From contig JAHBAE010000052.1 of NCBI GenBank assembly GCA_018384485.1, forward strand, positions 1 to 32,182: a DNA stretch of 32,182 nucleotides, in the 5' to 3' direction. This DNA is from Kiritimatiellia bacterium. Its GTDB lineage: Bacteria; Verrucomicrobiota; Kiritimatiellia; RFP12; UBA1067. Positions 2,711 to 32,050 of the stretch are shown in pieces (the first letter of the stretch is position 1; each line of letters begins with the position of its first letter). Both the position numbers and the translations under genes were made by a program. The notes under the pieces were generated by a model, which was given only the letters and a program-made list of their open reading frames with translations, searched no databases and had not been told where the DNA came from.

Positions 2711-2811
2711 TGGTTAGTGGTTAGTGGTTAGTAGTTAGTGATTAGTAGTTAGTAGTTAGTGGTTAGTTGGGAGTTTAGAGTTAGGAGTGAGGGAGTTTAG
2801 AGTTGGGAGTT
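2711..2811. repeat. GTTAGT-type short-period repeat tract, left of the restriction gene
   Basis: About 100 bp are made of degenerate hexamers (TGGTTAGTGG, GTAGTTAGT), passing into GAGTTTAGAGTTGGGAGTT-like units. Positions 2727-2760 are identical to 6111-6144 on the other side of the restriction gene (34 of 34 bases). GTTTAGAGTTGGGAGTT (2795-2811) recurs exactly at 7680-7696. GTTAGGAGTGAGGGAGTT (2780-2797) differs at one base from the unit repeated inside the gene at 3931 and from 6157-6174. The tract fills the space between feoB and the next gene, and I see no promoter in it. Confidence 0.9.
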
Positions 2812-2820
2812 GAGAGGAAT

Positions 2821-5800
2821 ATGAATATGCAGCAAAAACAAATAGCCCGCAAGTTCGTTGAACATTGGACTTTTCGACGCGGAAGCGAGAAGGGTGAGGA
2901 TCAGCAGTTCTGGAACTCGCTCTTGGGCGATGTTTTGGGGATGAAGGATATTGCCTCTCGCATTCAGTATCAGGTGCCTGTTCCTATGAAAGGAACGACT
3001 AAGTTTCTCGACGCGTGGATTCCCGAGACGAAGGTCCTCATTGAGCACAAAAAACGCGATGTAAAACTTGATCAGCCGCAAGCAGGTCACGGCGGTATGA
3101 CACCATATGAACAGGCTGCAGAATACGATGCTGCCCGCGGCTTTGACGAAAAGGCGCGGTGGATTGTCACATGCAATTTTGATGCGATATGGATATACGA
3201 CCGATCACACCCGCTTGATGAACCTCAAAAGATTACGGTGAGCGAACTCCCTAAGGAAGTGCATCGTCTTTCGTTCCTTGTAAAAAGCGATGTGCAGAAA
3301 GTCGACTCCAAGGAGTTGGAGATTTCCGTTCTGGCTGGGCGCATCGTCGGCAAACTCTATGATGCGTTATTAGCGCAATATAACGGTAGTGGCACGCTTC
3401 CTTGCGTGACCGATAATGGTAGGTCGGCTTGTCCTCAAGCCGCCGCCGAAACCCTTGCCGCGCTGAACCGCCTTTGCGTTCGCCTTGTTTTTTGTCTCTA
3501 TGCCGAAGATGCTGATATCTTTCCTAAAAATGCATTCCGCAATCTCGTTAAAGCGACACCAGTTGAATTTCTGCGCCGCCAGCTCCTACGTCTCTTTCAG
3601 ACGCTCGATACTCCACTTGATAAGCGCGACCGATTTTTGGAGGCAGAGCTTGCGGTTTTCCCGTATACGAACGGAGGTCTCTTTAAAGGGGCGAGCGAAT
3701 CGGAGATTCCACCGCTCACAGAGGAAATAGCAAAGCTTCTTGACGGCTCGTCTGACTTTGATTGGAGCGGAATTAGTCCCACAATTTTCGGGGCGCTTTT
3801 CGAATCGACCCTCAACCCCGTTACTCGCCGCGCCGGCGGCATGGTCTATACGAGTATTGAGAACATCCATAAGGTAATCGACCCACTCTTCCTGGATGAT
3901 TTAGAAAAGAGATTGGATGATATTTTAGGAGTTAGGAGTGATGGAGTTAGGAGTGATGGAGTTAGGAGTGATGGAGTTAATTCGCCCACTCCCTCACTCA
4001 CCCACTCCATCACTCCCTCACTTAAAAAGAAACTCCTTGCTTTGCAATCCGAAATTGCTACGCTTAAGTTTCTCGATCCCGCCTGCGGCAGCGGCAACTT
4101 CTTAACCGAAACATACCTTTCTCTCCGTCGTCTTGAAAATAGAATCATCGCCGCTTTGCAAGCAGGGCAGGGCGAGCTTGATTTGGGCGCGTCTGTCAAG
4201 GTTTCCATTTCGCAGTTTCATGGAATTGAGATAAACGACTTCGCTGTCACAGTCGCCAAAACCGCGCTTTGGATTGCCGAGGCGCAGATGCTCAAAGAGA
4301 CGGCGGAAATTTTACATCGTGAACCCGACTATCTGCCGCTTAAAGAATACGACGGCATTGTCCAGGGCAATGCGCTCAGGATGGAGTGGGGAAGTTTGTT
4401 GAATGTTGCCAATGCGCAAATGTTGCCAATTGCCAAGTCCAATTCCCAATTGGGGAATAGGGAACCGGGAACGGAAAATTGGAAATTAGGAAATGGAACT
4501 GGCAACACTACCACACTGGCAACATTTTCTTACATCATGGGTAATCCGCCGTTTGTGGGGGCGCGAAACAAGTCGAACGATCAGGCGGCGGATATGGAAG
4601 CGGTTTTCGGAAAAAGTTGGAAATGTCTCGGCAATCTTGACTATGTGACGTGCTGGTACAAGAAGGCTGCGGATTATGTTTTAGGGACCACGGAATACAC
4701 TGAAAACACGGAAAAGAAATCTTCTGTGTATTCCGTGTCTTCCGTGGTTAAAAACCCCTTTACCAAATGCGCTTTTGTGTCAACCAATTCAATATGCCAG
4801 GGAGAGGCGGTTGCCTTGCTGTGGAAACCTCTCTTTGAAAGCGGTATTGAGATTGATTTTGCATGGAGAACGTTTAGGTGGGATAATGAAGCACAGGCTA
4901 AAGCACATGTTCATTGCGTGATTATTGGGTTTGGGGTGAGGGGAGATAATCTCACGCAAAGTTCGCAAAGTCCGCAAAGTGGACGGATAGAAACTTCCCG
5001 AACTTCGCGGACTTCGCGTGAGGCAAAAAGAATCTACGACGGGGACAAGGTAATTGAGGCGGCGAACATCAATGGTTATCTGATGGATGCGCCGAATGCT
5101 TGGATTGAAGGCCGGAAGAGTCCAATATGCGATGTGCCGCCTCTCGTTTTTGGTTCAATGCCAAATGACGGCGGGTATTTAAGCGATTGGGGTGACGAAC
5201 AAAAGGATGCGATCTGTAGTGCAAATCCAGAAGCTAAAAGTTTGTTTCGTCGGTTTCTGGGTGCATCAGAATTTATTAATAATCGAACTCGCTGGTGCTT
5301 ATGGCTTAAAAATGCTTCGCCCGCAATTATTCGTTCAATTCCGCAGGTGAAGGACGCTGTCGCAAATGTTTATAAAATGCGTTCTGAAAGTTCAAGGATA
5401 GGGACACGGAAGTTGGCTGAGGTGCCAACGCTTTTTGGTGAAATTAGACAGCCAGAAAGTGGAAATTATCTGCTTGTTCCTTGTCATTCATCAGAAAATA
5501 GAAATTACATTCCGTTGGGGTATATTTCATCCGATGTTATTTGCAGCAATGCGAATCTCATGATTCCCTCCGCAACGCTCTACCATTTCGGTGTTCTCAC
5601 GTCATCAGTTCACATGGCGTGGATGCGGACGGTTTGCGGACGGCTTAAGAGCGATTATCGCTATTCGGCAAATATCGTCTACAACAACTTCCCGTGGCCG
5701 GAGGTGGAGAATGTTGCCAATGTGCAAGTGTTGCCAATAACCAATACCAATTCCCAGTTGGGGAATATGGAACGGGGGACGAGAGATTGGAAATTGGAAA

Positions 5801-6129
5801 ATGGAACTGGCAATATTGGCAACACTGGCAACATTAGAAAAAGATCTACACGTTCTACACGGCTAAACAATTCCGTGTGTTCCGTGTCTTCCGTGGTTAA
5901 AAATATCACTCAAACCGCGCAATCAATCCTCGATGCGCGCTCTCTTTATCCCGACAGTTCCCTCGCCGATCTCTACGACCCCTTAACAATGCCGGTAGAA
6001 CTTCGTAAAGCTCACGCGGCAAATGATGCCGCAGTAATGAAAGCGTATGGTTACGCGCCCACCATGACCGAACCCGAAATCGTCGCTGACTTAATGAAGA
6101 GGTATCAGGAGTTAGTAGTTAGTGATTAG
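2821..6129 (+). CDS. MmeI-like (type IIL) restriction endonuclease-DNA methyltransferase with in-frame palindromic insertions
   Basis: One polypeptide of about 1102 residues should both cut and methylate DNA. The N-terminal nuclease motif is D64-x10-E75-H-K77. The Rossmann methyltransferase has motif I DPACGSGNF (419-427) and motif IV NPPF (575-578). The target-recognition part ends in the family signature RLKSDYRYS...YNNFPWP, followed by a helical C-terminus with SLADLYDPLTMP. MmeI-family enzymes are about 920 residues. The excess of about 180 matches six low-complexity insertions at 3928-4023, 4402-4526, 4688-4754, 4951-5022, 5710-5835 and 5836-5903, all open in frame. Start: ATG 2821 or ATG 2827 follows GAGAGGA (2812-2818), and 2827 has the better spacing. 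A TTG at 2803 lies in the repeat and is less likely. The last codons and the stop come from the flanking repeat. Whether the enzyme is active cannot be seen. Confidence 0.9.
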   Translation: MNMQQKQIARKFVEHWTFRRGSEKGEDQQFWNSLLGDVLGMKDIASRIQYQVPVPMKGTTKFLDAWIPETKVLIEHKKRDVKLDQPQAGHGGMTPYEQAAEYDAARGFDEKARWIVTCNFDAIWIYDRSHPLDEPQKITVSELPKEVHRLSFLVKSDVQKVDSKELEISVLAGRIVGKLYDALLAQYNGSGTLPCVTDNGRSACPQAAAETLAALNRLCVRLVFCLYAEDADIFPKNAFRNLVKATPVEFLRRQLLRLFQTLDTPLDKRDRFLEAELAVFPYTNGGLFKGASESEIPPLTEEIAKLLDGSSDFDWSGISPTIFGALFESTLNPVTRRAGGMVYTSIENIHKVIDPLFLDDLEKRLDDILGVRSDGVRSDGVRSDGVNSPTPSLTHSITPSLKKKLLALQSEIATLKFLDPACGSGNFLTETYLSLRRLENRIIAALQAGQGELDLGASVKVSISQFHGIEINDFAVTVAKTALWIAEAQMLKETAEILHREPDYLPLKEYDGIVQGNALRMEWGSLLNVANAQMLPIAKSNSQLGNREPGTENWKLGNGTGNTTTLATFSYIMGNPPFVGARNKSNDQAADMEAVFGKSWKCLGNLDYVTCWYKKAADYVLGTTEYTENTEKKSSVYSVSSVVKNPFTKCAFVSTNSICQGEAVALLWKPLFESGIEIDFAWRTFRWDNEAQAKAHVHCVIIGFGVRGDNLTQSSQSPQSGRIETSRTSRTSREAKRIYDGDKVIEAANINGYLMDAPNAWIEGRKSPICDVPPLVFGSMPNDGGYLSDWGDEQKDAICSANPEAKSLFRRFLGASEFINNRTRWCLWLKNASPAIIRSIPQVKDAVANVYKMRSESSRIGTRKLAEVPTLFGEIRQPESGNYLLVPCHSSENRNYIPLGYISSDVICSNANLMIPSATLYHFGVLTSSVHMAWMRTVCGRLKSDYRYSANIVYNNFPWPEVENVANVQVLPITNTNSQLGNMERGTRDWKLENGTGNIGNTGNIRKRSTRSTRLNNSVCSVSSVVKNITQTAQSILDARSLYPDSSLADLYDPLTMPVELRKAHAANDAAVMKAYGYAPTMTEPEIVADLMKRYQELVVSD
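3928..4023. repeat. In-frame insertion 1: 15-bp tandem repeat plus hairpin
   Basis: GTTAGGAGTGATGGA is repeated three times without change (3931-3975), encoding GVRSD three times. GGAGTGATGGAGT (3965-3977) is complementary to ACTCCATCACTCC (4004-4016), so the element can fold. It sits between the conserved block that ends DPLFLDDLEKRLDDIL and the block KKKLLALQSEIATLKFLDPACGSG. About 96 bases (32 codons) are involved. The 18-mer GTTAGGAGTGATGGAGTT recurs at 6157-6174 in the right flanking tract. Confidence 0.9.
4402..4526. repeat. In-frame insertion 2: GTTGCCA palindromic element
   Basis: The arms 4405-4428 and 4500-4523 are inverted copies of each other (19 of 24 bases complementary), and the outermost bases are AATGTTGCCA and its complement. 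It encodes a peptide beginning NVANAQMLPIAKSNSQLGN. It lies just before methyltransferase motif IV (YIMGNPPFVGA), where related enzymes have only a short link. It is homologous along its whole length to the element at 5710-5835. Confidence 0.9.
4688..4754. repeat. In-frame insertion 3: CCACGGAA palindromic element
   Basis: The arms 4688-4713 and 4722-4747 pair at 22 of 26 positions around an 8-base loop. The right arm continues as TTAAAAA. Each arm has a 9-base internal period. The encoded peptide is TTEYTENTEKKSSVYSVSSV followed by VK. It separates the blocks YKKAADYVLG and TKCAFVSTNSICQGE, which I expect to be adjacent in MmeI-like enzymes. The 24 bases at 4731-4754 recur exactly at 5880-5903. 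Confidence 0.92.
4951..5022. repeat. In-frame insertion 4: CTCACGCAAAG palindromic element
   Basis: The arms 4951-4980 and 4993-5022 pair at 24 of 30 positions around a 12-base loop. Each arm is three 9-base units, giving QSSQSPQSG on the left and TSRTSRTSR on the right in the protein. An independent copy of the same family lies between genes at 7485-7572. Confidence 0.92.
5710..5835. repeat. In-frame insertion 5: second GTTGCCA palindromic element
   Basis: The length is 126 bp, exactly 42 codons. The left arm AATGTTGCCA (5710-5719) plus GTGTTGCCAATA (5728-5739) is perfectly complementary to 5814-5835 once eight bases are looped out. It encodes NVANVQVLPITNTNSQLGN and so on, 25 of 35 residues identical to insertion 2 and in the same reading frame. 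It directly follows the conserved FPWPEVE. Confidence 0.92.
5836..5903. repeat. In-frame insertion 6: half-degenerate CCACGGAA element
   Basis: The right arm TTCCGTGTCTTCCGTGGTTA plus AAAA (5880-5903) is identical to 4731-4754. The left arm (around 5842-5861) keeps only the ACACG and ACACGG cores. The encoded SVCSVSSVVKN is the same frame and almost the same peptide as in insertion 3 (SVYSVSSVVKN). It abuts insertion 5, so the two stand in tandem before the conserved QTAQSILDARSLYPDSSLADLY. Confidence 0.85.
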
Positions 6130-17870: not shown

Positions 17871-17941
17871 TGTCCCGTCGTGTAGTGGCCGCACAGGGGT
17901 TTTTGATACCCTTAGTCCTGGTTCGAATCCAGGCGGGACAA
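17871..17941 (+). tRNA. tRNA-Gln (anticodon TTG)
   Basis: The acceptor arms TGTCCCG (17871-17877) and CGGGACA (17934-17940) pair fully. The anticodon stem GGGGT/ACCCT encloses loop TTTTGAT, with anticodon TTG at 17903-17905, reading CAA. The T arm is CCTGG-TTCGAAT-CCAGG. The weak U1-A72 first pair is typical of glutamine tRNAs. Base 73 is A, and the following CCG shows that CCA is not encoded, unlike in the tRNA-Val of this window. Confidence 0.93.
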
Positions 17942-17971
17942 CCGTCAAAATTTCTAATCGGAGAGAGAGTC

Positions 17972-19072
17972 ATGGATATTCATATCGAAGATTTGTTGCA
18001 GGCCACTATTGATGAAGGTGGTTCAGATTTGCATATTCGTGCCTACATGCCTCCCAAACTGCGCGTTCACGGCGAATTGCTTCCCATAACAGAAGAGGAA
18101 CTAACCGAGGAGGAGTCGTATCAGCTTTGCAAGGAGATGATCGACAAGCTCGGTAATCCTGCGATGCTGGATGAAGTGGAGAAATCCGGCGGTGCCGACT
18201 TCGCTCTCGCCCATCCTGACGGCACTCGTTTCCGCGTCAGCGTCTTTAAAGAGAGAAAGCGCTACGGTGCCGTGCTGCGTCAGATTCCAAGCACGCTCCT
18301 TACGCTTGAGCAGATAGGCCTTCCTCCTGTTGTTAAGGAACTTCTTTTCAAGCCGCGCGGTCTTATTCTCGTAACGGGTCCCACGGGCTCAGGCAAATCG
18401 ACGACTCTCGCTTCGATGATGGATGTCATCAACCGCGAGCGCAACGTGCACATAATTACGATTGAAGACCCTATCGAATTTTACCATACGTCTAAAAACT
18501 CTCTCGTCACTCAGCGTGAAATCGGTGACGACGTGCCGTCGTTCGCCGAGGCTATCCGCCGCGCGCTCCGTCAAGACCCGGATGTTATTCTCGTCGGCGA
18601 AATGCGCGACCTTGAAACGATTGCCGCAGCCATTACCGCCGCGGAAACGGGCCACCTCGTTTTCGGAACTCTCCACACCACAGGTTCCGCAGAGACGATC
18701 GATCGTATCGTCGACGCGTTTCCGATGAATCAGCAGTCGCAGATTCGTACGCAGCTTGCGGCAGGAATGCAGGCGGTCATCTCCCAGATTCTTTTGCCGA
18801 AGCTTGATGCGAACGGTGAGGTGCACGGGCGTGTCGCGGCGTTTGAAATCATGACTCGCACCGACGCCATCTGCTCGCGCATTCGCGATAATAAGACGAA
18901 TATGATCAAGTCTGATTTGCAGACAGGTGCGAAATACGGCATGCAGACGCTCGATTCCCATCTCTCATCTCTTTACAAGCAGGGGCTTATCGCTTACGAG
19001 GAGCTTATCACGAAATCGCAGGATCCTGATTCTGTCGTGCAGAAGCTCAGAGAAGAAGGCTACGGGGCATGA
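17972..19072 (+). CDS. pilT: Type IV pilus retraction ATPase PilT
   Basis: The protein has 366 residues and is a hexameric ATPase that would disassemble pilin fibres at the inner membrane base. It has a PAS-like N-terminal domain with the family's GGSDLHIR block, Walker A GPTGSGKST (136-144), an Asp box around ITIEDPIEF (162-170), Walker B VILVGEMRD (205-213) and a His box GHLVFGTLHT (227-236). The start is ATG 17972, preceded by GGAGAGAG (17960-17967). An open frame reaching back to 17885 would overlap the tRNA and is rejected. Next comes pilB after 44 bases. The Walker B and length favour PilT over PilU, but the distinction is not certain. Confidence 0.93.
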   Translation: MDIHIEDLLQATIDEGGSDLHIRAYMPPKLRVHGELLPITEEELTEEESYQLCKEMIDKLGNPAMLDEVEKSGGADFALAHPDGTRFRVSVFKERKRYGAVLRQIPSTLLTLEQIGLPPVVKELLFKPRGLILVTGPTGSGKSTTLASMMDVINRERNVHIITIEDPIEFYHTSKNSLVTQREIGDDVPSFAEAIRRALRQDPDVILVGEMRDLETIAAAITAAETGHLVFGTLHTTGSAETIDRIVDAFPMNQQSQIRTQLAAGMQAVISQILLPKLDANGEVHGRVAAFEIMTRTDAICSRIRDNKTNMIKSDLQTGAKYGMQTLDSHLSSLYKQGLIAYEELITKSQDPDSVVQKLREEGYGA

Positions 19073-19116
19073 GTGCCCCAAATGTCAGTAATACGCGAGG
19101 AATAAGAGCTTAAAGT

Positions 19117-20808
19117 ATGGATCAGATACTTCAGATATTAATCCAAAACGGATATATTGACGAGGCCGGAGCTTCTGATATTGCAGATCTGGCGAAGACG
19201 GAATCAAAGAGCGTGCGCAAGCAGATTCTCGATTCAGGTATTCTTGATGAGGATTCTCTTCTTGCGGCGATGGCGGCGTATCAAGATACGGAAGCGATCG
19301 ATTTGTCTTCCCTTACAATCGATTCGTCCGTAACAGATGCGATTCCCGCCTCAACCGCGAGGATGTACAATGTCTTTCCCGTGGCGGCCGACGATTCCTC
19401 CGTTACTCTTGCCACTTTCGATATTGTCGATCCGCGCATTTCCGATGAAATGCTCTTCACGCTCTCGAAGGAAGTGCGTTTTGTTTTCGCCCGCGAAAAA
19501 GACGTTATGGACCGCATCTCCCAATATTATGGAGATGCGAACGATTCAGTAGCCGACATGATCAAGTCGCTCGGCGAGGGCATGACGGATGATGAAACTC
19601 TCGCCGCCTCTGCAAACGTCAATGACATCGCTTCGATGGAGAACGCGGCGAATTCCTCCGCCATCATCAGATTTGTGAACCTCGTTCTTTATCAGGGCGT
19701 CGTCGACCATGCGGCCGACATTCATATCGAGCCTTTCGAGCACGATTTCAAAATACGCTACCGCGTCGACGGCGCGCTTTACGAGATGAAGGCGCCTGAT
19801 GTGAAGATGGCTCCCGCCATTATTTCGCGTATAAAAATTCTCGCCAACTTAAATATCGCCGAGCGAAGAGTGCCGCAGGACGGGCGCATAGCTCTCACCG
19901 TGGCAGGCCGCCCAGTCGACTTGCGCGTCTCATGCCTTCCTACGGCTCACGGCGAGTCTGTCGTTATGCGTATTCTCGACCAGACGACAACATCGCTCGA
20001 TTTGGAAAACGTAGGTCTCCCCGAAGACGTGTATGAGCAAATCACGATGGATATCGAAAAGCCGAATGGCATTTTCATCGTGACGGGGCCTACTGGCTCT
20101 GGAAAGACGACGACTCTATATTCCGTTTTAAGGCGCATCAACACGATAGACTCTAAGCTCCTTACTGCCGAGGAACCTGTCGAATACAATGTTGACGGTA
20201 TCGTCCAGGTGCCAATTGACGCGCGTGTAGGCAATACGTTCGCCACCGTTCTTAGGGCGTTTCTCCGTCAAGACCCTGATATTATGATGGTCGGCGAGAT
20301 TCGAGACCTTGAGACTGCGGAAATCGCCGTGCAGGCGGCTCTTACCGGCCACTTCGTTTTCTCGACTCTTCATACGAACGACGCCGCAGGCGCCGTGATG
20401 CGTCTTGTCGATATGAATGTCGCGCCGTATCTTCTTTCTTCTACTCTTGAGGCCGTTCTCGGTCAGCGTCTCGTAAGGACGGTTTGCCGTGAATGTCGTC
20501 AGGCGTATGAGCCCGATAACGAGACTCTTGAGCGTATCGAGATGACGCGTGATCAAATCGGCGGGCGTCCGTTCTATTTCGGTAAAGGTTGCAAGACTTG
20601 CAACGGCACCGGTTACAAGGGGCGCCGCGGCGTATTTGAATATCTGCGCATGTCCAACCCGCTGCGCGAGCTCGTCAACAACAAAGCCCCCACTCTCGTA
20701 ATCCGCGAGAAGGCGCGTGAGCTTGGCATGCGCACGATGCGTGAAGATGGCATTCGCGCCATTCTTGACGGGTATACAACGGTTGATGAGGTCTTGAGGT
20801 ACACGTGA
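19117..20808 (+). CDS. pilB: Type IV pilus assembly ATPase PilB (GspE family)
   Basis: The protein has 563 residues and drives pilin polymerisation. It has an N-terminal MshEN/GspE-N domain of about 140 residues, then the conserved AADIHIEP (199-206) and DGRIAL blocks. Walker A GPTGSGKTT is at 324-332, Walker B MVGEIRD at 391-397 and the His box GHFVFSTLHT at 411-420. The zinc-binding C457, C460, C492 and C495 (CREC, CKTC) are characteristic of PilB/GspE and absent from PilT. Together with pilT it gives the opposing motor pair, but no pilC or pilin gene is in view. A GspE role in type II secretion cannot be excluded; pilT next door favours pili. The stop overlaps the next GTG by four bases. 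Confidence 0.93.
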   Translation: MDQILQILIQNGYIDEAGASDIADLAKTESKSVRKQILDSGILDEDSLLAAMAAYQDTEAIDLSSLTIDSSVTDAIPASTARMYNVFPVAADDSSVTLATFDIVDPRISDEMLFTLSKEVRFVFAREKDVMDRISQYYGDANDSVADMIKSLGEGMTDDETLAASANVNDIASMENAANSSAIIRFVNLVLYQGVVDHAADIHIEPFEHDFKIRYRVDGALYEMKAPDVKMAPAIISRIKILANLNIAERRVPQDGRIALTVAGRPVDLRVSCLPTAHGESVVMRILDQTTTSLDLENVGLPEDVYEQITMDIEKPNGIFIVTGPTGSGKTTTLYSVLRRINTIDSKLLTAEEPVEYNVDGIVQVPIDARVGNTFATVLRAFLRQDPDIMMVGEIRDLETAEIAVQAALTGHFVFSTLHTNDAAGAVMRLVDMNVAPYLLSSTLEAVLGQRLVRTVCRECRQAYEPDNETLERIEMTRDQIGGRPFYFGKGCKTCNGTGYKGRRGVFEYLRMSNPLRELVNNKAPTLVIREKARELGMRTMREDGIRAILDGYTTVDEVLRYT

Positions 20809-23313: not shown

Positions 23314-26300
23314 ATGAAATTTAAGGCAGTATTTATTTTCCTTCTCGCCGCTTTACCAGCGTTTCTTTTTGCAGAAGAAGCTGATGCGCAGGCGGCTGAG
23401 CCCGTTCAAGAAAACGTAGAGCTCGAGAATGAGCTTAAATATGTGGAGGCCTTGATAGACTCAGGGTTCCCCGACTTTGCAACTATAGTCAGTGAAGAGG
23501 TAAAAAAGCGTTGGCCGGAGTCGGAGGCGCGGCTTTTTGCGTTTGACGTTCGCGGCCTCTTAGCCTGCGGTCAAATCAAAGAGGCAGAGGCGAAAATCGC
23601 CGCTCTTCCCGATCGTACCGGCACAAAGTATTGGGCGGCGCGCCTTGAAATGGCCAACAGCCTCTTCCAGCGCGGGCAGAAGGATGAGTGCATGAAGATA
23701 TACGAGGAGTTCTTCGATAAACACAAGAAGCCTCCGAAGGATATTGCGAAGTTTTACAATTCTGCCAGCTGGATTTACGGTCAGCTCCTCATGCGCGATA
23801 ATAAGCCCGAGAAAGCCGTGGCGCGCTACGAGTATGCTTTGAAGAATCTTAAAGGCGAAGAATGGTGCAACCTTGCATGCGAAACGGCCGATATCTATCT
23901 CAAGCTTATTGAAAACGCAGAATCTAAAGCGAAGCGCGATGAATTCATCAAGGCGGCAACGCGCATAGTAAACAAGCTTCTCTTTCAGTTTGAAATGCCG
24001 ATTTATTTTGGGCGCGGCGTTTCGATGAAAGCTCATATAGAGCAGATTAAGGGCGATAGCGAAAAGGCCGCGGCCACAATTGAAGAATATAAGCCTCAGC
24101 TTGACGATCTTCACGCGCAGATTCTTGAGAACGACCCCGAAGGCAAACTCGGGCTTCTTCGTCAGTCTCCGCTGCCGCAGTGCCTTTATTTGAAGGCGAA
24201 GGTTTTGTGGGATGAGGCGAAGAAGGAGTACGCATCCCCCACCCGCAAGGATGAGCGCGTAAAAGAGCTTCTCTTCGGCAAGAAGGTGGGTGGTCGCCGC
24301 AAGGTTGAAACTGGTGCATTTGCCATCGCGCAAGGCATCTTCCTTAATTACGAGACATCCTCCTGGGCTCCCGCCGCAGGCGATATGGCGCAGGAAATAC
24401 GCGAATTTGCCGAGCAGAAGTATAACGCCAAAATCAAAACGCGCGTCACTAAGGAGCAGCGTGAGAAAGTGCGCGTTGCGCAATTCCGCGAGGCGAATGA
24501 AAAGTATGTCGCAGGTCTTTATAAAGAAGCCGTAGTCGCTTACTATGATGTTCTTTCAAGGTATCCTGAGCATATTGATTCTATCGCGGCGGTTGAAAAG
24601 ATTGCACTCATCCTTCTTGATGAATACATGGAGGCTACGGATGAGGCTGTCAAAGAAGAAAAGCGTCTTGATTGCGATACGGTAGAGGGGTATCTTTCCG
24701 AACGCTTTGCGGGAGTTTCCGACAATCTCATCATGACAAGCGCTGGAGACGCTCTTGTAAGATTGGCGGCAAAGGAGGCCGAGTACCGTAATATGGACAG
24801 GTCCGACGCCCTCTACGCTGCGTTCTGCGGCAACTACACGCGCCATGCGGCCGCTCCCGCCACGGCGTCTTCAAAGGCAAGCGAGTTGCAGAAGAAGGAA
24901 CTTTACGACAAGGCTATCTACTACTGGAGTTTTCTTGATAAGATTTATACGAATTCCGTTTTCCATGTAATGGCTCTTTCTCAGCTGTCTTATTGCTACG
25001 GTAAGCTCGGCGATTCCACGAATGAGATTAATTATATAGCTCGCTACGTTGCGGTCGAGAAAAATCAGCTGCGCAAGCTTCAGGCTCAATTGCGTTTAGC
25101 GCAGATGTATCAGAAATCGGGCCTTGATATTCTCAATTCATGCACCAATCATCCTCCTGAGGAAATTGAGGCGCTTGAACGCAAGGGCACAGCTCAGAAT
25201 ATCAGAGCCATCCAGAATTTTGTCCGTCTTGAAAAGGAAGCCGGCGAAGCGTTGGCGAATCCGGCCACACCCGCTTCCGACAAAGAAAAGTTTGTTGAAG
25301 CGCGTGAAGCTGCTTTATTTCTCATAGGTGAATGTTTCAGCCGCATGAAAAGGCCTGAGAAGAATCTTGAGATGTACAGGAAAAAAGCGGCCGAAAGTTA
25401 CGAGGCGTATCTTGGGGTGTATCCTCAGGGCAGGTGGGCTGAACACGCCTATGTTAAGCTTGGCATGATATATACGGCTCTTGGCGATGTAGTAAAATCG
25501 AAAGACGCCCTTGATAAGCTGACGAGGCTATTCCCCGATTCCGACTCGGCGAAGAACGCAAAGCCTCGCCTTGCCAAGAGCCTTATTGAAATCGGAATGA
25601 AGAAGGAGGGTGCTCAGATTTACGCCGAAATGATCGGCACCGACGGCAAATATACTGCGGCGCAATATCTGAATGCCGGTGAGGCGCTTGTTGAATCTGG
25701 CAATTGGGATCTTGCGAACCGTGCGTATGAAAAGGCCATCCGCCTTGCTCCGTCGAATTCAGTAATGACGGTTGCGCGTGCGCGTTTGGGGATTGCGAAG
25801 ACATCATGGAAGCAGGGCTCTTTGGATGAGGCGCGTGAAGCACTCGATCTTTTCCTTGCTGATCAGAAAATGTCCAAATTGCCGATTGCCGCCGATGCAT
25901 ATTTCATGCTCGTCGATGTAGCTCGCCAGCAGGGCAGGGGCGAATCTGACGCGAAAATGCGCGATAAATATTTCGGTGCCGCGGCTCTTGCCCTTAGGAA
26001 GGTGCGCGCATACTGGGCGAAGAAGCCGAAGTGGGAGCAGGATAAGCTTACTCTTACATCCGGCGATTTGATTATTGAGCGTATGGAGGCAGAAGAGAAG
26101 AAAGGCTTTAAAGAGGAGGCTAAGCGTTCTTGCGAGAAGGCTGCGTCCGTATTCCAGGTGTTTATTCAGTCGAATGGGCCCACGGAGAGTATGCCGATTT
26201 CTCAGATGAGCAAAGAAGAGCTTGCAAATCTTGAAATCGCTTACGCAAGGGTCATAAGCCTTTTTGCGAAGCTTGGATCTGAGCAGTCTTCGCGTGTTAT

Positions 26301-26448
26301 TTCGTTCGGAAATGAATACATCAAATACTTCCCAGAGGGCAAGTATCTCAGCGATGTAAATAACTATATGAACAGAGCAAAGGCGGATATTCCCGCTTCT
26401 TCTTCCACGGAGGAAAAAACATCCGAGGAAGGTGAGGGGCAGGAATAA
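23314..26448 (+). CDS. Large exported TPR protein of the ExbB/ExbD cluster
   Basis: The protein has 1044 residues. Residues 1-20 are a clear signal peptide (KFKAVFIFLLAALPAFLFA), which fixes the start. The remainder is all helical with many TPR-like pairs, for example at 151-178 (a GQLLMRDNKPEKAVARYEYA block), 705-770 (YVKLGMIYTALGDVVKSKDA) and 785-816 (AGEALVESGNWDLANRAYEK). The C-terminus is a short acidic tail ending EEGEGQE. It would be periplasmic. TPR proteins commonly stand beside TolQ/ExbB-type motors and act as scaffolds for partner or outer-membrane proteins. It is the first gene of a run of six or seven close-set genes. No enzymatic motif is visible. Confidence 0.85.
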   Translation: MKFKAVFIFLLAALPAFLFAEEADAQAAEPVQENVELENELKYVEALIDSGFPDFATIVSEEVKKRWPESEARLFAFDVRGLLACGQIKEAEAKIAALPDRTGTKYWAARLEMANSLFQRGQKDECMKIYEEFFDKHKKPPKDIAKFYNSASWIYGQLLMRDNKPEKAVARYEYALKNLKGEEWCNLACETADIYLKLIENAESKAKRDEFIKAATRIVNKLLFQFEMPIYFGRGVSMKAHIEQIKGDSEKAAATIEEYKPQLDDLHAQILENDPEGKLGLLRQSPLPQCLYLKAKVLWDEAKKEYASPTRKDERVKELLFGKKVGGRRKVETGAFAIAQGIFLNYETSSWAPAAGDMAQEIREFAEQKYNAKIKTRVTKEQREKVRVAQFREANEKYVAGLYKEAVVAYYDVLSRYPEHIDSIAAVEKIALILLDEYMEATDEAVKEEKRLDCDTVEGYLSERFAGVSDNLIMTSAGDALVRLAAKEAEYRNMDRSDALYAAFCGNYTRHAAAPATASSKASELQKKELYDKAIYYWSFLDKIYTNSVFHVMALSQLSYCYGKLGDSTNEINYIARYVAVEKNQLRKLQAQLRLAQMYQKSGLDILNSCTNHPPEEIEALERKGTAQNIRAIQNFVRLEKEAGEALANPATPASDKEKFVEAREAALFLIGECFSRMKRPEKNLEMYRKKAAESYEAYLGVYPQGRWAEHAYVKLGMIYTALGDVVKSKDALDKLTRLFPDSDSAKNAKPRLAKSLIEIGMKKEGAQIYAEMIGTDGKYTAAQYLNAGEALVESGNWDLANRAYEKAIRLAPSNSVMTVARARLGIAKTSWKQGSLDEAREALDLFLADQKMSKLPIAADAYFMLVDVARQQGRGESDAKMRDKYFGAAALALRKVRAYWAKKPKWEQDKLTLTSGDLIIERMEAEEKKGFKEEAKRSCEKAASVFQVFIQSNGPTESMPISQMSKEELANLEIAYARVISLFAKLGSEQSSRVISFGNEYIKYFPEGKYLSDVNNYMNRAKADIPASSSTEEKTSEEGEGQE

Positions 26449-26497
26449 TTTTACATCACGCTCTTAAGTATCAAATTTTATTCAAGAAAGGAAAAAG

Positions 26498-27268
26498 ATG
26501 AAGAAACTTTTGGTGACAATGTTTGCAGCGGCGCTTACGGCGCAGGCATGGGCGGTTAAAGGAACTCTCGTCACCGCTACGGAGTCCTTGACCGGCGACA
26601 TCAAGTGGCAGGCGAGGACGAAGCTTTATACGGTCTCGATCATGCGCGGGAAAACTCCTATTGAGATGGAGCGTAAACTCGCTGATGTCGTCAGGCTCGA
26701 TATCCCTGAGCCCAAAGGCTTTGCGGCGGCAGTTCAGCAGGTTGAATCAGGCAAGGGGCAGCAGGCAGTCGGCGCTTTGACGAAAATCGTCAGCGAATAC
26801 CGTATGCTCAACTGGGATAAACCGGCAGGGCGTTACCTCGCGCTTGCGCTTTTGGCCGCAGGAAACCCGCAGAAGGCTCAATCTGTGTGTCTTGGCGTTA
26901 TTGCCGACGATAAGAGCGCCTCTTACATGGGTGATATAGCCTCCGCCTATTGGAAAGCTCTTCTCAAGCTTGGCAAAAAAGATCAGCTCGAAGGTCTTCT
27001 TAAAAAGGCCATCGGTTGCGATGATCGCGCAGCCTCCGCCGCAGCGCTCGTAATGCGCGGCGATATTATTCTCAGCGATGCTAACGACGCGCCTGATAAA
27101 CTTCGCAAGGCTCTTACCGATGGCTATCTGCGCGTTATTCTTATGTATCAGGATCCTGCTTGCCGCCGCGAACGCAAAGAGGCGCTCCTTAAGGCAGCAG
27201 ATGTTATGGATAAGCTCCGTCAGTCCGCACGTGCTGCGAATCTCCGCAGCGAGGCTCAGAAGATTTGA
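26498..27268 (+). CDS. Exported protein of the ExbB/ExbD cluster, function unknown
   Basis: The protein has 256 residues. The signal peptide is about 1-19 (KKLLVTMFAAALTAQAWA). Residues 20-75 look like a small beta domain (KGTLVTATESLTGDIKWQAR, then TKLYTVSIMRGKTPIEME) with the flavour of an SH3-like barrel. The rest is helical and TPR-like (YLALALLAAGNPQKAQSVCL). AGAAAGGA precedes the ATG. It lies 49 bases after the large TPR gene and 56 before exbB, so it is probably a periplasmic subunit of the same system. I do not recognise a named family. Confidence 0.78.
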   Translation: MKKLLVTMFAAALTAQAWAVKGTLVTATESLTGDIKWQARTKLYTVSIMRGKTPIEMERKLADVVRLDIPEPKGFAAAVQQVESGKGQQAVGALTKIVSEYRMLNWDKPAGRYLALALLAAGNPQKAQSVCLGVIADDKSASYMGDIASAYWKALLKLGKKDQLEGLLKKAIGCDDRAASAAALVMRGDIILSDANDAPDKLRKALTDGYLRVILMYQDPACRRERKEALLKAADVMDKLRQSARAANLRSEAQKI

Positions 27269-27324
27269 TTTTATACTAAAAACGTAAACACTTAAGATCT
27301 ACCCAAACCCAAGGAAACAAACAA

Positions 27325-28140
27325 ATGAACAAGAAGATAAGTAAATCAATCGCCGCGTTTTCGATTCTCGTCGGAACTTGCATTGCTCCTGTGGCTGCAC
27401 TGCAGTCGTTCGGTCAAGAGCTTACTGACGCCAATGGCAACGCAGTCTCCTCCAATGCTGCGCAGCCTAAGAGCAAGGGTGGTGCTGGCTTTGTTGAAAT
27501 CGTATTCGGTTCTGGTTGGGTCGGCACGGTGCTTTGGTTTACGCTTTTCGGCGATGGCGCGCTCGCTATCTATTTCTCGATTGACTCATCCATCCTTATC
27601 AAGCCCGATCGTCTTATGCCCAAGCGTCTGCTTGATGGCGTTCAGGGCGCCATGGCCGAGGGCGATGTTGTAAAGGCAATGGAGATTTGCCAGCAGAATC
27701 CCTCGGCTATGTCCTCTATCGTACTTGCGGCTTTCCAGCATATCGAAGAGGGCTTTGATGCAATTCAGGAAGCCGTTAACGCCGCTTCCGACCTTGAGCA
27801 GGAGAAGATTCAGCAGCGTCTGAACTGGATTTCCGTGTGCGGAAACTTAGGCCCCTCCCTCGGCCTTCTCGGAACGGTGCAGGGAATGATTTTGACGTTC
27901 GACGCTCTCGCGTCGGGTGGTGCAGGCGATGCATCTGCTCTCGCTTCGTCGATCGGTCAGGCTCTTTGGACGACGGCCGGCGGTCTTGTCGTGTCGATTC
28001 CCGCAATCACCGTGTTCTACTCTCTTCGTAACAAGGCCAACCGTCTTATTCTCAAGATGACGGCGATGACGATGGAGATTCTCAATGGTCTTCGCAATGT
28101 CTCCGTCGATCCTGGCATGGAAGAGGAAGCAGTCGCCTAA
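27325..28140 (+). CDS. MotA/TolQ/ExbB-family proton channel subunit
   Basis: The 271-residue protein would be the inner-membrane stator of a proton-driven motor. It has an N-terminal hydrophobic segment (8-26), a linker, and the three family helices at about 58-84, 168-192 and 210-233. The signature GLLGTVQGM is at 180-188 and the cytosolic domain lies between helices one and two. The extra N-terminal signal-like segment is found in ExbB proteins that carry a periplasmic extension. AAGGAAAC precedes the ATG. Its partners are the two ExbD genes that follow. The family does not say what is energised. Confidence 0.93.
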   Translation: MNKKISKSIAAFSILVGTCIAPVAALQSFGQELTDANGNAVSSNAAQPKSKGGAGFVEIVFGSGWVGTVLWFTLFGDGALAIYFSIDSSILIKPDRLMPKRLLDGVQGAMAEGDVVKAMEICQQNPSAMSSIVLAAFQHIEEGFDAIQEAVNAASDLEQEKIQQRLNWISVCGNLGPSLGLLGTVQGMILTFDALASGGAGDASALASSIGQALWTTAGGLVVSIPAITVFYSLRNKANRLILKMTAMTMEILNGLRNVSVDPGMEEEAVA

Positions 28141-28184
28141 GGCGGGGAAAGTTTCAGATTTAACTTAAGCTGATTTTTCAAGCA

Positions 28185-28682
28185 ATGGCGAGAAAACAAC
28201 AGGAAAATCCAACACTCGACATGACGCCGATGATCGACGTCGTGTTCGAATTGATTATTTTCTTCGTGGTCACTCTCACTGAGGCTCAGAAAAAGGACGA
28301 AACGATTGAGCTTGAAGATGGTAAGCATGGCATAGTGCTGACTCCGGAAGAGCTTCCGCCTTCCCATCTTCAGATCGACATCGGTATTTATCCTTCTGGG
28401 CCCAAGAGGGGCAAACCGAGAATATCAATGGGCGATAGGGATATCACGCCGGCAGAAATCGGCCAGCGTGTTCGCGATCGCTATAAAAAGTACGGTGAGT
28501 TCCCTGTGATCATAAGGGCCGACTATGCCGTTCCTCATAAGGCCGTAGCTCAAGTGATGGAAGCTTGCACCGCGAACAACATCTGGCGCATTTCGTTTAT
28601 GGCTGTTCATGAAGATAAGACTTCAAAGCCGGGTAAGCCTGGGCGCAAACGTCTATCGTTCTTAAAGAACAGGGGGAAGTGA
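28185..28682 (+). CDS. ExbD/TolR-family protein, first copy
   Basis: The protein has 165 residues: a short cytosolic start, one transmembrane helix (about 16-33) with the proton-relay aspartate D18 in MTPMIDVVFELIIFFVV, then a periplasmic ExbD fold with the conserved VIIRADYAVPHKAVAQVMEA region. A basic tail (KTSKPGKPGRKRLSFLKNRGK) is unusual. The first 29 residues match those of the next gene at 28 positions, but the periplasmic parts are unlike each other. No good ribosome binding site precedes the ATG, so translation may depend on coupling or on low initiation. Confidence 0.93.
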   Translation: MARKQQENPTLDMTPMIDVVFELIIFFVVTLTEAQKKDETIELEDGKHGIVLTPEELPPSHLQIDIGIYPSGPKRGKPRISMGDRDITPAEIGQRVRDRYKKYGEFPVIIRADYAVPHKAVAQVMEACTANNIWRISFMAVHEDKTSKPGKPGRKRLSFLKNRGK

Positions 28683-28683
28683 T

Positions 28684-29091
28684 ATGGCCAGGAAACAACA
28701 GGAGAACCCAGCTCTTGATATGACGCCGATGATTGACGTCGTTTTCGAGTTAATCATTTTCTTCGTCGTCTCGATTAAGCAGGAGGATATTTTCTCTAAG
28801 CTCAATGCTAACCGCCCGGCCCCCAACAGCGCTCCGTCTCAAGCTACCGACGATACGAGCGTTACGATTGAAATCGGCAAGGGCCGCACGTTGAACGGAG
28901 TTATTCTTTACAACAAGCGAGAGGTTAAAGTCGTTGAGCTTAATAAGAACCTCAGCGAAGTTGCGAGGACTTCGAAAAAGACGCCGGTAGTTATCAAGTG
29001 TACTGAAGATTCGCCGCACAAGGCCTTGATTGACGTCCTTGATGTCTGCTACCGTAACGGATTATATAGTGTAAGCATATTCACGCTTTAA
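28684..29091 (+). CDS. ExbD/TolR-family protein, second copy
   Basis: The protein has 135 residues, with the same N-terminal membrane segment as the preceding gene (MARKQQENPALDMTPMIDVV with D18) and a different, shorter periplasmic domain containing TPVVIKCTEDSPHKALIDVL. The start is two bases after the previous stop, with GGGGGAAG just upstream. ExbD works as a dimer in the ExbB pentamer. Two such genes with one shared helix suggest a heterodimer in which only the periplasmic halves differ. Confidence 0.93.
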   Translation: MARKQQENPALDMTPMIDVVFELIIFFVVSIKQEDIFSKLNANRPAPNSAPSQATDDTSVTIEIGKGRTLNGVILYNKREVKVVELNKNLSEVARTSKKTPVVIKCTEDSPHKALIDVLDVCYRNGLYSVSIFTL

Positions 29092-29108
29092 TATCGGGAG
29101 ACCGCCTA

Positions 29109-30824
29109 ATGGACGGATATACTCAAGAGGAAGAAATATTAGAGGAAGAGGCTCCGCTTTCAGCCGAAGAACTTTTCGAGCTGCATAAGGAAGAGATTAA
29201 CGCTGCATTCGAAGAGAAGGGCTTTTTTAAGCGTTTCTCAGAAATGTGCTCAGGCTTGACGAAGCCGCGCTCTTCGGCGGAATACAAACTCGCCAAGGTG
29301 GAATTGACTCGCTTGAGCGCGCCGATTCTCGCCGTTTTGCTTCCTACCTTGTTTATAATCACTCTTATGATTGTAACGAAGGTGTCCGCGAACAAGAAAG
29401 ATGTGATTGAGGTTGAAATTTCTACGATTCAGGAGGAAGAACTTCCGCCGGAAGAAGATATTCAGGAGCCCGATCCTGTTGAGCCCGATCCAGTCGATGA
29501 AGTCGTAGATATTCAAGTCGACACTCCCGTAGTAGGGCCGCCTTCGGAAATGGTCTCTCCAAGTCCCACTCCGACAACAGAGCCTCTTTCTGTAAAACCG
29601 GCAGAGCAGGAGTCTGTTGCGCTTATCAAGTCACCAATTCAATTCCGTGCATTGGCAGGCTCCCGCAATCCGGGAACTATTGGCAGGATGACGAGCGGCG
29701 GCAGTTCCTTGGGCGATGCCGCTACTGAGGCTGCCGTTATGAAAGTTTTAAGGTGGCTTAAATGGAAGCAAAACCCGAATACAGGTGCAATAGGAGATCT
29801 TGCTACTACGTCTTTGGCTGTTTTGGCTTATCTTGCCCATGGTGAGACTCCCTCCTCCAAAGAGTTCGGCGAAACGGTCTTAAACGCCATACAATATCTT
29901 ATTTCCGCTCAGATACAAGGTTCGGAAGGTGTTCAGACATTCAAAGGCACCGATGGGCATGAATATGCTACATTGATTGCCACATACGCCCTTTGCGAGG
30001 CGTACGGAATGACGAAAAATCCCAATGTTAAGGAGGCTGCAATGCGCGTTCTTACGCGAATCGTGCAAAACCAGTCGCCCACTGGAGGTTGGGATTACAA
30101 TATCAATAAAGAGTCTACTCGTGACGACCTCTCGTTTGAAGGTTGGGCGATTCAGGCTATCAAGGCGGGTAAGCTTGCAGGTCTTGAGCCGGAAGGTCTT
30201 GATGAATGTATAAAGAAGGCTATTCGCTGCCTTAAGACGCGTAACTTCCGTAACGGAGGCTTCAACTATACGGCAAACGGCTCTCCAACTGGCCTTACGG
30301 CAACGGGGTGCCTTGCCATGCAGCTTCTCGGCTATGCCAATGAGCCTGAAGTTAAGAGCGCCTTAGACTTTATGCGTGAGTGGCTTCCCACATTCAAGTC
30401 GACTGAGAAGGTAGTACCTGGCGGACCTTTGCCTGGAACCGCTCCACAGTACTATGCGTATTACGCGGCTCAGTGTAAGTATCAGGCAGGAATGTGTGAA
30501 GAGCCTGACCCCAAGAATGTCAAGAGTTGGCAGGATTGGAATGTTGCGATGAAAAAACTCTACTGCTCAACGCAAATTACAATCCCTCAGACAATTGAGG
30601 GTCCTGACGGCAAGCCTAAGGAGATGGGGTATTGGAAAGACGGCTACAATGGAGATTTCATGGGCTCGTGCCTTTGCGCGCTTCAGCTTATGGTCTATTA
30701 TCGCTACCTGCCTACGTCTAAGATTGAGAAGAAGGCTGTGCCTAAGAAGGAAAAGGGCTCTTCCGGCAAGAAGAAGCGTGAAGAGAAGAAGAAAGAGGTT
30801 GTTGACATCGAAGTTGACATCTGA
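29109..30824 (+). CDS. TonB-like membrane protein with C-terminal alpha/alpha-toroid (prenyltransferase/squalene-cyclase-like) domain
   Basis: The protein has 571 residues: an acidic cytosolic part of about 69 residues, one membrane helix (70-92), then an acidic proline-rich stretch EEELPPEEDIQEPDPVEPDP (109-128), the pattern of a TonB periplasmic arm. A low-complexity link follows to about 200. Residues 203-535 form helical repeats with TGGWDYN (325-331), NGGFNYT (382-388) and MGYWKDGYNGD (506-516). These fit the alpha/alpha toroid of prenyltransferases, squalene cyclases and complement-like folds. I see no DxDD cyclase motif, so a binding role is more likely than catalysis. The Lys/Glu tail ends EVVDIEVDI and echoes DEVVDIQVD at 130-138. 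GGGAG precedes the ATG, 17 bases after the second exbD. No TonB C-terminal domain is present. Confidence 0.85.
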   Translation: MDGYTQEEEILEEEAPLSAEELFELHKEEINAAFEEKGFFKRFSEMCSGLTKPRSSAEYKLAKVELTRLSAPILAVLLPTLFIITLMIVTKVSANKKDVIEVEISTIQEEELPPEEDIQEPDPVEPDPVDEVVDIQVDTPVVGPPSEMVSPSPTPTTEPLSVKPAEQESVALIKSPIQFRALAGSRNPGTIGRMTSGGSSLGDAATEAAVMKVLRWLKWKQNPNTGAIGDLATTSLAVLAYLAHGETPSSKEFGETVLNAIQYLISAQIQGSEGVQTFKGTDGHEYATLIATYALCEAYGMTKNPNVKEAAMRVLTRIVQNQSPTGGWDYNINKESTRDDLSFEGWAIQAIKAGKLAGLEPEGLDECIKKAIRCLKTRNFRNGGFNYTANGSPTGLTATGCLAMQLLGYANEPEVKSALDFMREWLPTFKSTEKVVPGGPLPGTAPQYYAYYAAQCKYQAGMCEEPDPKNVKSWQDWNVAMKKLYCSTQITIPQTIEGPDGKPKEMGYWKDGYNGDFMGSCLCALQLMVYYRYLPTSKIEKKAVPKKEKGSSGKKKREEKKKEVVDIEVDI

Positions 30825-32050
30825 TGAAATTTCCTCTCTTCTTAGCGGTTAAATACCTCAAACCGAAGCGCTCCGTCGCTTCGGTTATTACGCTTGTATC
30901 CGTTCTCGGCGTTATGCTGGGTGTTGCGGTTGTTATAATCGTGCGCAGCGTGATGACAGGGTTTGGAGATATCTGGGAAGAGAAAATCTTAGATTTCAAG
31001 CCACATATTTCGCTCGTTCCATATTCAGGCAATGTGATACACTCCGAAGAGGAACTTGCCGCGAAGCTCAGAAAAATTTCAGGAGTTACCTGCGTTACTC
31101 CTGAAATCGATACGCGTGTTTTGCTTGCAAACCGCGGAAGGGTGCTCGCGCCGGTCATAATAGGAGTTAACGGCGATGATTTCGCTTCGGCATACAAGGT
31201 TGGCATGCCTCGTGCAGGGTCGTTTGATCTTGACGGCGATACAATTATCTTAGGCTCGACGGCGGCGCGTACACTCGGTGTTTGGGTGGGCGATGAAGTT
31301 ACAGTCTACTCGCCTAAAACGCTTATTGATAAAGACGAGATATTCCTTCCCGTCAAATGGCGCGTCGGCGGCATTTTCTCTTGCGGTCAGCATGAATACG
31401 ATTCAGGTTATGTAATCGCATCTCTTTCCAATGTCCGCGATTTGATGGGCCTTGAGAGTGGAGTTTTCGCAGTTCACGTGAAGACCGATTGCCCTACGAT
31501 TGCGGGGAAGTTCAATGATATCACGAAAAACATATCTATTCTTGCGCCTGGGCTCAGGCAGATATCTTGGCGCGAGGCCGACCGCGAAATTTTCAACGCT
31601 CTGGCGGTAGAGAAGAATATGACGGCGCTTTTGCTTTCGTTGATATCGCTTGTAGCCGTTTTCTGCGTGATGAACACGCTTCTCGTCCTTACAGTTCAAA
31701 AGACTTCTGAAATCGGTCTTTTAAAGGCTATAGGGTTTTCAAAGCGCGAGATAATGCAGGTCTTTCTCGTTCACGGCTTAATCCAATGCGCAATCGGCAT
31801 AGTGCTTGGTCTTCTGACTTCATGGGCTGTTCTTTCAAATCTTCAGAAAATCGTTGAGTTTCTTGCGCGCATGGGGCTTGAAGTTTTTCCGGCATCAATC
31901 TACGGCCTTGCGCAGATCCCCCATAGGCTTATTATTTCAGATGTTTTCTGGGTAGTGGCGCTCGTTCTTGTTTTCGGCACTCTTGCTTCCTTTGTGCCTG
32001 CGCTTACCGCCTGCCTTAAAGATCCAGTCCGCGCTTTGAACAATAATTGA
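30824..32050 (+). CDS. LolC/LolE-like lipoprotein-releasing ABC transporter permease
   Basis: The 408-residue FtsX/MacB-type permease has one N-terminal helix (20-42) after FLAVKYLKPKR, a large periplasmic domain (about 45-260), and three C-terminal helices (about 266-290, 312-336 and 370-395). The coupling motif TSEIGLLKAIGFSKREI lies between the first two of these. This is the LolC/LolE layout, the inner-membrane part that extracts lipoproteins for transfer to LolA. The ATG shares one base with the stop of the toroid gene, so the two are translationally coupled. No ATPase (lolD) gene begins in the remaining 130 bases. Other FtsX-like exporters are possible, but the N-terminus favours Lol. 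Confidence 0.88.
   Translation: MKFPLFLAVKYLKPKRSVASVITLVSVLGVMLGVAVVIIVRSVMTGFGDIWEEKILDFKPHISLVPYSGNVIHSEEELAAKLRKISGVTCVTPEIDTRVLLANRGRVLAPVIIGVNGDDFASAYKVGMPRAGSFDLDGDTIILGSTAARTLGVWVGDEVTVYSPKTLIDKDEIFLPVKWRVGGIFSCGQHEYDSGYVIASLSNVRDLMGLESGVFAVHVKTDCPTIAGKFNDITKNISILAPGLRQISWREADREIFNALAVEKNMTALLLSLISLVAVFCVMNTLLVLTVQKTSEIGLLKAIGFSKREIMQVFLVHGLIQCAIGIVLGLLTSWAVLSNLQKIVEFLARMGLEVFPASIYGLAQIPHRLIISDVFWVVALVLVFGTLASFVPALTACLKDPVRALNNN

Follow-up and report, generated by a model that had tools for sequence, protein, structure and literature searches.

A candidate proton-driven envelope force transducer with an exchangeable toroid head in a Kiritimatiellia bacterium

A cluster of six genes in contig JAHBAE010000052.1 of a Kiritimatiellia bacterium (assembly GCA_018384485.1; the whole stretch analysed, 32,182 nucleotides, is referred to as the window) probably encodes a trans-envelope force transducer that is driven by the proton motive force and carries an exchangeable head. 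We put the probability of this reading at about 0.7. It draws on what could be observed directly: the gene set, the predicted fold of the transducer, the intact motor residues, the conserved gene order, and the replacement of the head on a conserved arm and tail. The cluster was confirmed at positions 23314-30824, with all genes on one strand in the order TPR, EXP, ExbB, ExbD, ExbD and toroid protein, separated (5' to 3') by gaps of 49, 56, 44, 1 and 17 bp. Purine-rich stretches that resemble ribosome-binding sites precede several of the six genes. A sequence-only reading of the window had described the same six close-set genes, and the open reading frames and Pfam matches (MotA_ExbB, ExbD) agree with it; what needed correction is that the second "exported protein" (EXP) consists of a small barrel and a TPR-like solenoid, and that the operon continues into a lolC gene. 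The features of the cluster are the following.

23314-26448, plus strand: TPR-repeat exported protein of 1044 amino acids with a signal-peptide-like N-terminus (open reading frame; TPR_6, 5.8e-15; an orthologue lies upstream in most loci)
26498-27268, plus strand: EXP, an exported protein with a predicted five-strand small barrel (residues 20-68) and a TPR-like solenoid (75-255) (AlphaFold2, pLDDT 92.8; Pfam search, no match)
27325-28140, plus strand: ExbB/TolQ-type motor subunit with an N-terminal export signal and a short extension (MotA_ExbB, 1.3e-25)
28185-28682, plus strand: ExbD/TolR-type subunit 1 (ExbD, 9.7e-21; MTPMIDVVF motif with the proton-carrying Asp)
28684-29091, plus strand: ExbD/TolR-type subunit 2, differing in sequence from subunit 1 (ExbD, 1.2e-21)
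29109-30824, plus strand: toroid transducer of 571 amino acids, with cytoplasmic helices, a transmembrane (TM) helix, a Pro/Glu arm, an alpha/alpha toroid and a C-terminal tail (open reading frame, AlphaFold2, VIA-align)
29310-29375, plus strand: TM segment RLSAPILAVLLPTLFIITLMIV of the toroid transducer, with Ala-X3-Pro where TonB-type proteins have Ser-X3-His
29403-29429, plus strand: D-box-like strand VIEVEISTI (residues 99-107), just past the TM segment (alternating pattern)
29436-29549, plus strand: Pro/Glu-rich periplasmic arm (disordered in the AlphaFold2 model)
29685-30716, plus strand: alpha/alpha toroid head (residues 193-536; pLDDT ~95; Z 23.4 to squalene-hopene cyclase)
30795-30821, plus strand: conserved strand-like C-terminal tail EVVDIEVDI (pattern; retained on PA14-headed proteins)

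The proposal of a TonB-like topology for the sixth protein, the TonB tip being replaced by a toroid, was upheld. Neither of the two outcomes that had been named as refuting it, a model lacking the toroid or a separation of these genes in every relative, was seen. No Pfam match to TonB_C was found in the transducer, and the AlphaFold2 model shows a confident toroid at residues ~193-536, a TM helix within residues 57-93 and a disordered Pro/Glu arm at 99-181. Realignment of the model to squalene-hopene cyclase (2sqc) with VIA-align covered 291 residues at 3.6 A; the TM-scores given by Foldseek itself are modest (0.3-0.4), and the fold was assigned on the VIA-align realignment and the pLDDT, not on those scores. 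The only Pfam matches of the transducer are sub-threshold ones to toroid-type families (pectate lyase), its relatives match SQHop_cyclase, and a sequence search of the PDB returned a single weak match (E 0.28). The polar and aromatic residues H244, Y286, E297, D340, S342, W346, Y448, Y452, Q455, W474, N478, Y530 and R532 are invariant in 54 relatives; of these 13 positions, almost all are also kept in a set of 24 rows reaching down to ~24% identity, which suggests a ligand-binding or catalytic site. The possibility that the toroid is of the thioester type was rejected, as the motif (CGEQ) occurs in no aligned row.

Toroid relatives were found in 88 of the 195 genomes of the phylum that were searched. 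Their loci, taken from the same order, class and phylum, have for the most part the arrangement TPR-EXP-ExbB-ExbD-ExbD-toroid. A scan of genome_contigs yielded 80 loci, all labelled Kiritimatiellae, Lentisphaerae, Verrucomicrobia or uncultured bacterium; most of those that reach far enough have the same order and the remainder are orphan copies. ExbD, ExbB, EXP and TPR all lie upstream on the same strand for 43 of 78 toroid genes in genome_contigs and for 24 of 52 in the other loci of the phylum, many of the toroid genes without the full set being orphan copies or situated at contig ends; the linkage exceeds what chance would give. At the level of genomes the core accompanies the toroid in 67 of 80 cases (odds ratio 26, kinship ignored). 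The suspected occurrence of toroid genes near ExbD in other PVC genomes is borne out inside this phylum, which is the scope of the survey, and the gene order recurs across it, with an adjoining toroid at 82 of 117 cores. A plasmid search for the toroid found none. Beside the orphan toroid genes no recurring partner family was found, save near-copies in close relatives; three of them (L117, L119, L161) directly follow a gene for a 742-residue protein that appears by eye to be GH92 mannosidase-like. Tandem arrays of toroid transducers, with no ExbB/ExbD/EXP core nearby, are present at three loci (L059, L060, L061) of a genus that we take to be Akkermansia.

A search with an EXP profile recovered cores whose sixth gene is not a toroid. 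Over the 117 core loci, the head of the adjoining transducer is a toroid in 82, PA14-like in 8, vWA in 3 and DUF4159 in 2, with 21 unrecognised and one at a contig end; these counts are not a census, since the toroid was partly used as bait in collecting the loci, and the PA14 assignment derives from the Pfam match of one member (1.8e-8) and the homology of the others to it. In the genus of the window itself a PA14-like head occupies exactly slot six in six genomes (G172, G276, G237, G214, G256, G268), on the same kind of arm and with the same ...VxVDI tail, and a PA14-like domain occurs somewhere in nine genomes of the genus. In view of these sister species, the toroid is not the essential component of the system. 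As the toroid is exchanged for a PA14-like domain within one genus and both the arm and the C-terminal tail persist, the head can be regarded as a cassette, and the tail as part of the platform rather than of the toroid. A tree of ExbB and EXP, made with a quick method and containing some long branches, requires at least 8 changes of head type. In 57 of 120 non-redundant transducers the TM segment is followed by a D-box-like alternating strand (random stretches, 11%), and 63 of the 120 have the strand-like tail pattern (background, 1.7%); kinship inflates both counts. The tail might offer an ExbD, or the EXP barrel, a second strand. One vWA-headed transducer of the same platform (L199, 7229-8623) has a SAM domain (2.2e-18) at its N-terminus, which presumably lies on the cytoplasmic side, and at another locus (L172, 3878-5056) the slot after ExbD is taken, instead of by a transducer, by a protein-kinase-like gene with a membrane segment at the C-terminal end.

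The proton motor is complete and its proton-path residues are intact. The pore residues Thr148 and Thr181 (E. coli numbering) are both Thr in all 116 alignable ExbB proteins of the module, including that of the window, which also retains Pro190 of TM3. Both ExbD proteins of the window have the MTPMID motif with the TM Asp, and in ExbD2 this Asp is invariant in 25 of 25 relatives. ExbB carries its export signal ahead of TM1, a feature that recalls the "long" ExbB of Serratia, the periplasmic extension of which touches HasB (PMC9008036). The EXP model is closest by Foldseek to TPR proteins (best E 5.6e-4), and the TPR protein is presumed to be a periplasmic scaffold.

The site at which the transducer would dock on the motor appears to have changed on both partners. 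In the cryo-EM structure Ser16 and His20 of TonB contact Ser34 and Trp38 of ExbB (PMC12215075). The TM segment in the window reads AVLLP at the position of SHLS (Ser-X3-His); toroid relatives in other classes, and in parts of the class of the window, do have the Ser-X3-His motif, and in the clade of the window the arm has Ala-X3-Pro and ExbB has Gly in the Ser34 column. Among the 95 loci with a head, ExbB Ser34 is found in 21 of the 23 with the motif and in 2 of the 72 without it, the other 70 having Gly, Ala or Leu in that column (Fisher p ~1e-16, kinship ignored). The test was scored on TM segments; the two rows with His and no Ser are regular-expression matches outside the TM segment. One locus with a broken frame (L071), scored as His with Ser, likewise has no TM match and was excluded from the tree test. 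A further locus (L070) combines Ser-X3-Asn in the TM segment with Ser in the ExbB column. The joint loss of the TM His and the ExbB Ser fits a co-remodelled docking site, but is no proof of it.

The mechanism that we infer concerns force transmission, stoichiometry, D-box capture, the scaffold role, and ligand binding and its location. A pentamer of ExbB would form a 5:2-type proton motor with the two ExbD proteins. The toroid protein would be the arm, its TM helix docking on the outer face of ExbB at the TonB/TolA site, and the strand just past the membrane would be held by the periplasmic domains of ExbD in the D-box mode. The Pro/Glu arm would then transmit force to the toroid head, which may grip a ligand or partner (a lipid, peptidoglycan or a protein had been suggested) through its conserved polar-aromatic pocket, with TPR and EXP acting as soluble periplasmic partners or scaffolds. 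The same platform bears toroid, vWA, PA14-like or DUF4159 heads, and since these are exchangeable, different heads would address different targets. A wider version, to which we give somewhat less than even odds, is that of a phylum-wide TPR-EXP-ExbB-ExbD-ExbD arm platform, the cassette heads of which are also supplied by orphan arm-head genes, such that one motor pulls several envelope targets and every arm offers two strand-like handles (D-box-like and C-tail).

Several observations weigh against the force-transducer reading. Neither a ligand nor a partner in the outer membrane was found, 21 of the 117 cores have no recognisable adjoining transducer, and some toroid transducers, tandem arrays included, lie apart from any EXP core. 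The transducer of the window has no counterpart of the His that is essential in TonB and TolA, and the D-box match is imperfect, IEVEIST not having the sixth hydrophobic residue of the published pattern. The His/Ser34 correlation comes down to ~3 independent changes on the tree (sign test p 0.25); two or three of them run in the same direction and none in the opposite one, a number with which a sign test is unable to reach significance. Coupling and force are inferred from sequence and models.

Four other explanations were considered. The motor and arm might replace Tol-Pal and tie the outer membrane to the cell at division, with TPR and EXP in the role of CpoB. This would agree with the two TolR-like subunits, with a sub-threshold match of the TPR protein to YbgF/CpoB, with the co-operonic lolC (an outer-membrane biogenesis gene) in the taxonomic order of the window, and with the outcome of a TolB_N search of the source genome, which gave no match (the assembly is ~90% complete, and Pal was not searched for). 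However, the YbgF match is of a generic TPR kind, the genome contains other ExbBD sets, lolC adjacency is limited to one order with mutL following in others, and a head that changes within a genus is easier to reconcile with a variable target than with a tether of housekeeping function, so that we regard this explanation as unlikely. It is less likely still that the toroid is a tethered periplasmic enzyme, processing glycans or isoprenoids and merely co-transcribed with, or positioned by, the motor. The fold neighbours of the model are indeed enzymes (squalene-hopene cyclase, cellobiose 2-epimerase, GH76), and its polar/aromatic residue set is invariant across very divergent toroids, but the cyclase motif DxDD is missing in the toroid of the window and in most relatives (present in 1 of 24 and 5 of 54 aligned rows), and the PA14, vWA and DUF4159 replacements on the same arm favour binding over a single chemistry.

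The TonB-like topology and the one gene for a TonB-dependent receptor (Plug) in the source genome would be in line with an alternative TonB that energises such a receptor via the toroid. We consider this highly improbable: a separate canonical TonB with a normal TonB_C, the existence of which had been suggested as a check, is encoded at another locus (C92), and therefore the module is no stand-in for a missing TonB; moreover, the receptor gene is single and none recurs beside the module in the loci read. The least probable explanation is that of synteny without function, in which the arm-toroid protein is uncoupled from the ExbB-ExbD motor. The loss of the His docking motif and the separate existence of some cores and toroids might be taken to point that way, but the six-gene order is retained over deep divergence, the TM His and ExbB Ser34 are lost in match, and head swaps leave arm and slot unchanged. 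A force transducer with an exchangeable head remains the reading that we prefer.

The gene that follows the cluster is the following.

30824-32050, plus strand: lolC/lolE-type permease gene (TIGR02212, 3.5e-75, under the cut-off of that model)

It overlaps the toroid gene by 1 bp, its start codon sharing a base with the toroid stop codon (ATGA), and lolC is found directly 3' of the toroid gene in 46 of 59 motor-linked loci. Because this adjacency is confined to the taxonomic order of the window, with the slot lacking lolC in other classes, it was not accepted as a functional link. The ~600-residue gene that follows the toroid in other orders was read by eye as MutL and judged unrelated. The TPR gene is preceded, at a distance of a few genes, by genes for GspE/PilT-type ATPases (17885-20808), as it is at three distant loci (L066, L067, L068), at the last of which they are accompanied by a T2SSF gene. 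The first 8 kb of the window have a lower G+C content (0.47-0.50, against 0.51-0.57 across the following 20 kb) and contain an MmeI-type restriction-modification gene (2803-6129). The source genome has seven ExbD genes. One of its further ExbB-ExbD pairs (L079, contig C115; 5446-6537, 8096-9009) lies near a gene for a secreted, unanchored toroid protein of 363 residues, with a MATE-type transporter gene (by eye) in between. Another set (L081, contig C114; 7518-11087) comprises ExbB-ExbD-ExbD, a short TonB-like arm protein of 144 residues and, encoded separately, a DUF4159 protein, so that arm and head are split over two genes.

To our knowledge just two trans-envelope jobs of ExbBD/TolQR-type motors are well understood, nutrient import and outer-membrane upkeep. 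With a constant arm and a tip that changes within a genus, motor coupling and target recognition would become separately testable, and the docking site, which seems altered on both sides, lends itself to a natural test of the model in which TonB and TolA couple through the His. The sequence-only reading had called the motor undescribed. This has to be trimmed, because operons that combine TPR, tolQ and two tolR genes with a TonB-like transducer bearing a C-terminal vWA domain have been reported in the Planctomycetes-Verrucomicrobia-Chlamydiae group (PMC12204202, Mol Biol Evol 2025), and the same gene families as in the core of the window precede vWA heads in the surveyed loci. The text of that paper mentions no toroid, cyclase or PA14. 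The open-access literature searched contains no paper that links a prenyltransferase-type transducer or DUF4159 to ExbD, a PA14 domain to TolQ/TolR, or TonB and ExbD to Kiritimatiell-. A vWA-headed form of the platform is thus already published, whereas neither the toroid and PA14 heads nor their exchange within one genus turned up in the literature searched. A family that keeps its arm and changes its tip suggests a wider design, of which the vWA proteins of 2025 would be one example.

The vWA systems and the system of the window share a homologous core of TPR, tolQ-like and two different tolR-like genes, followed by a TM-linker transducer without TonB_C. The window differs in having a toroid instead of a vWA domain, in the loss of the His motif (SHLS) in its clade, in the conserved C-terminal tail of its platform, in the EXP gene, which is unmentioned there, and in its natural head swaps. 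With TonB-ExbB-ExbD it has in common the motor family, the single TM anchor and a Pro/Glu arm, and its strand past the membrane fits most of the D-box pattern, whereas TonB_C and Ser-X3-His are lacking, the two ExbDs are different, and TPR and EXP are additional partners. The Tol-Pal system (TolQ-TolR-TolA-TolB-Pal-CpoB) is similar in its motor family and in the TPR protein of its operon, and dissimilar in that the window has a toroid where Tol-Pal has the TolA/TonB-type C-terminal domain and that no TolB was found in the ~90% complete assembly of the source genome. Finally, the head shares the alpha/alpha toroid fold of the squalene-hopene cyclases and prenyltransferases and of the epimerase and GH76 toroids (Z ~21-23), from which it is set apart by 8-18% identity, the absence of DxDD and its anchoring in the membrane through an arm.

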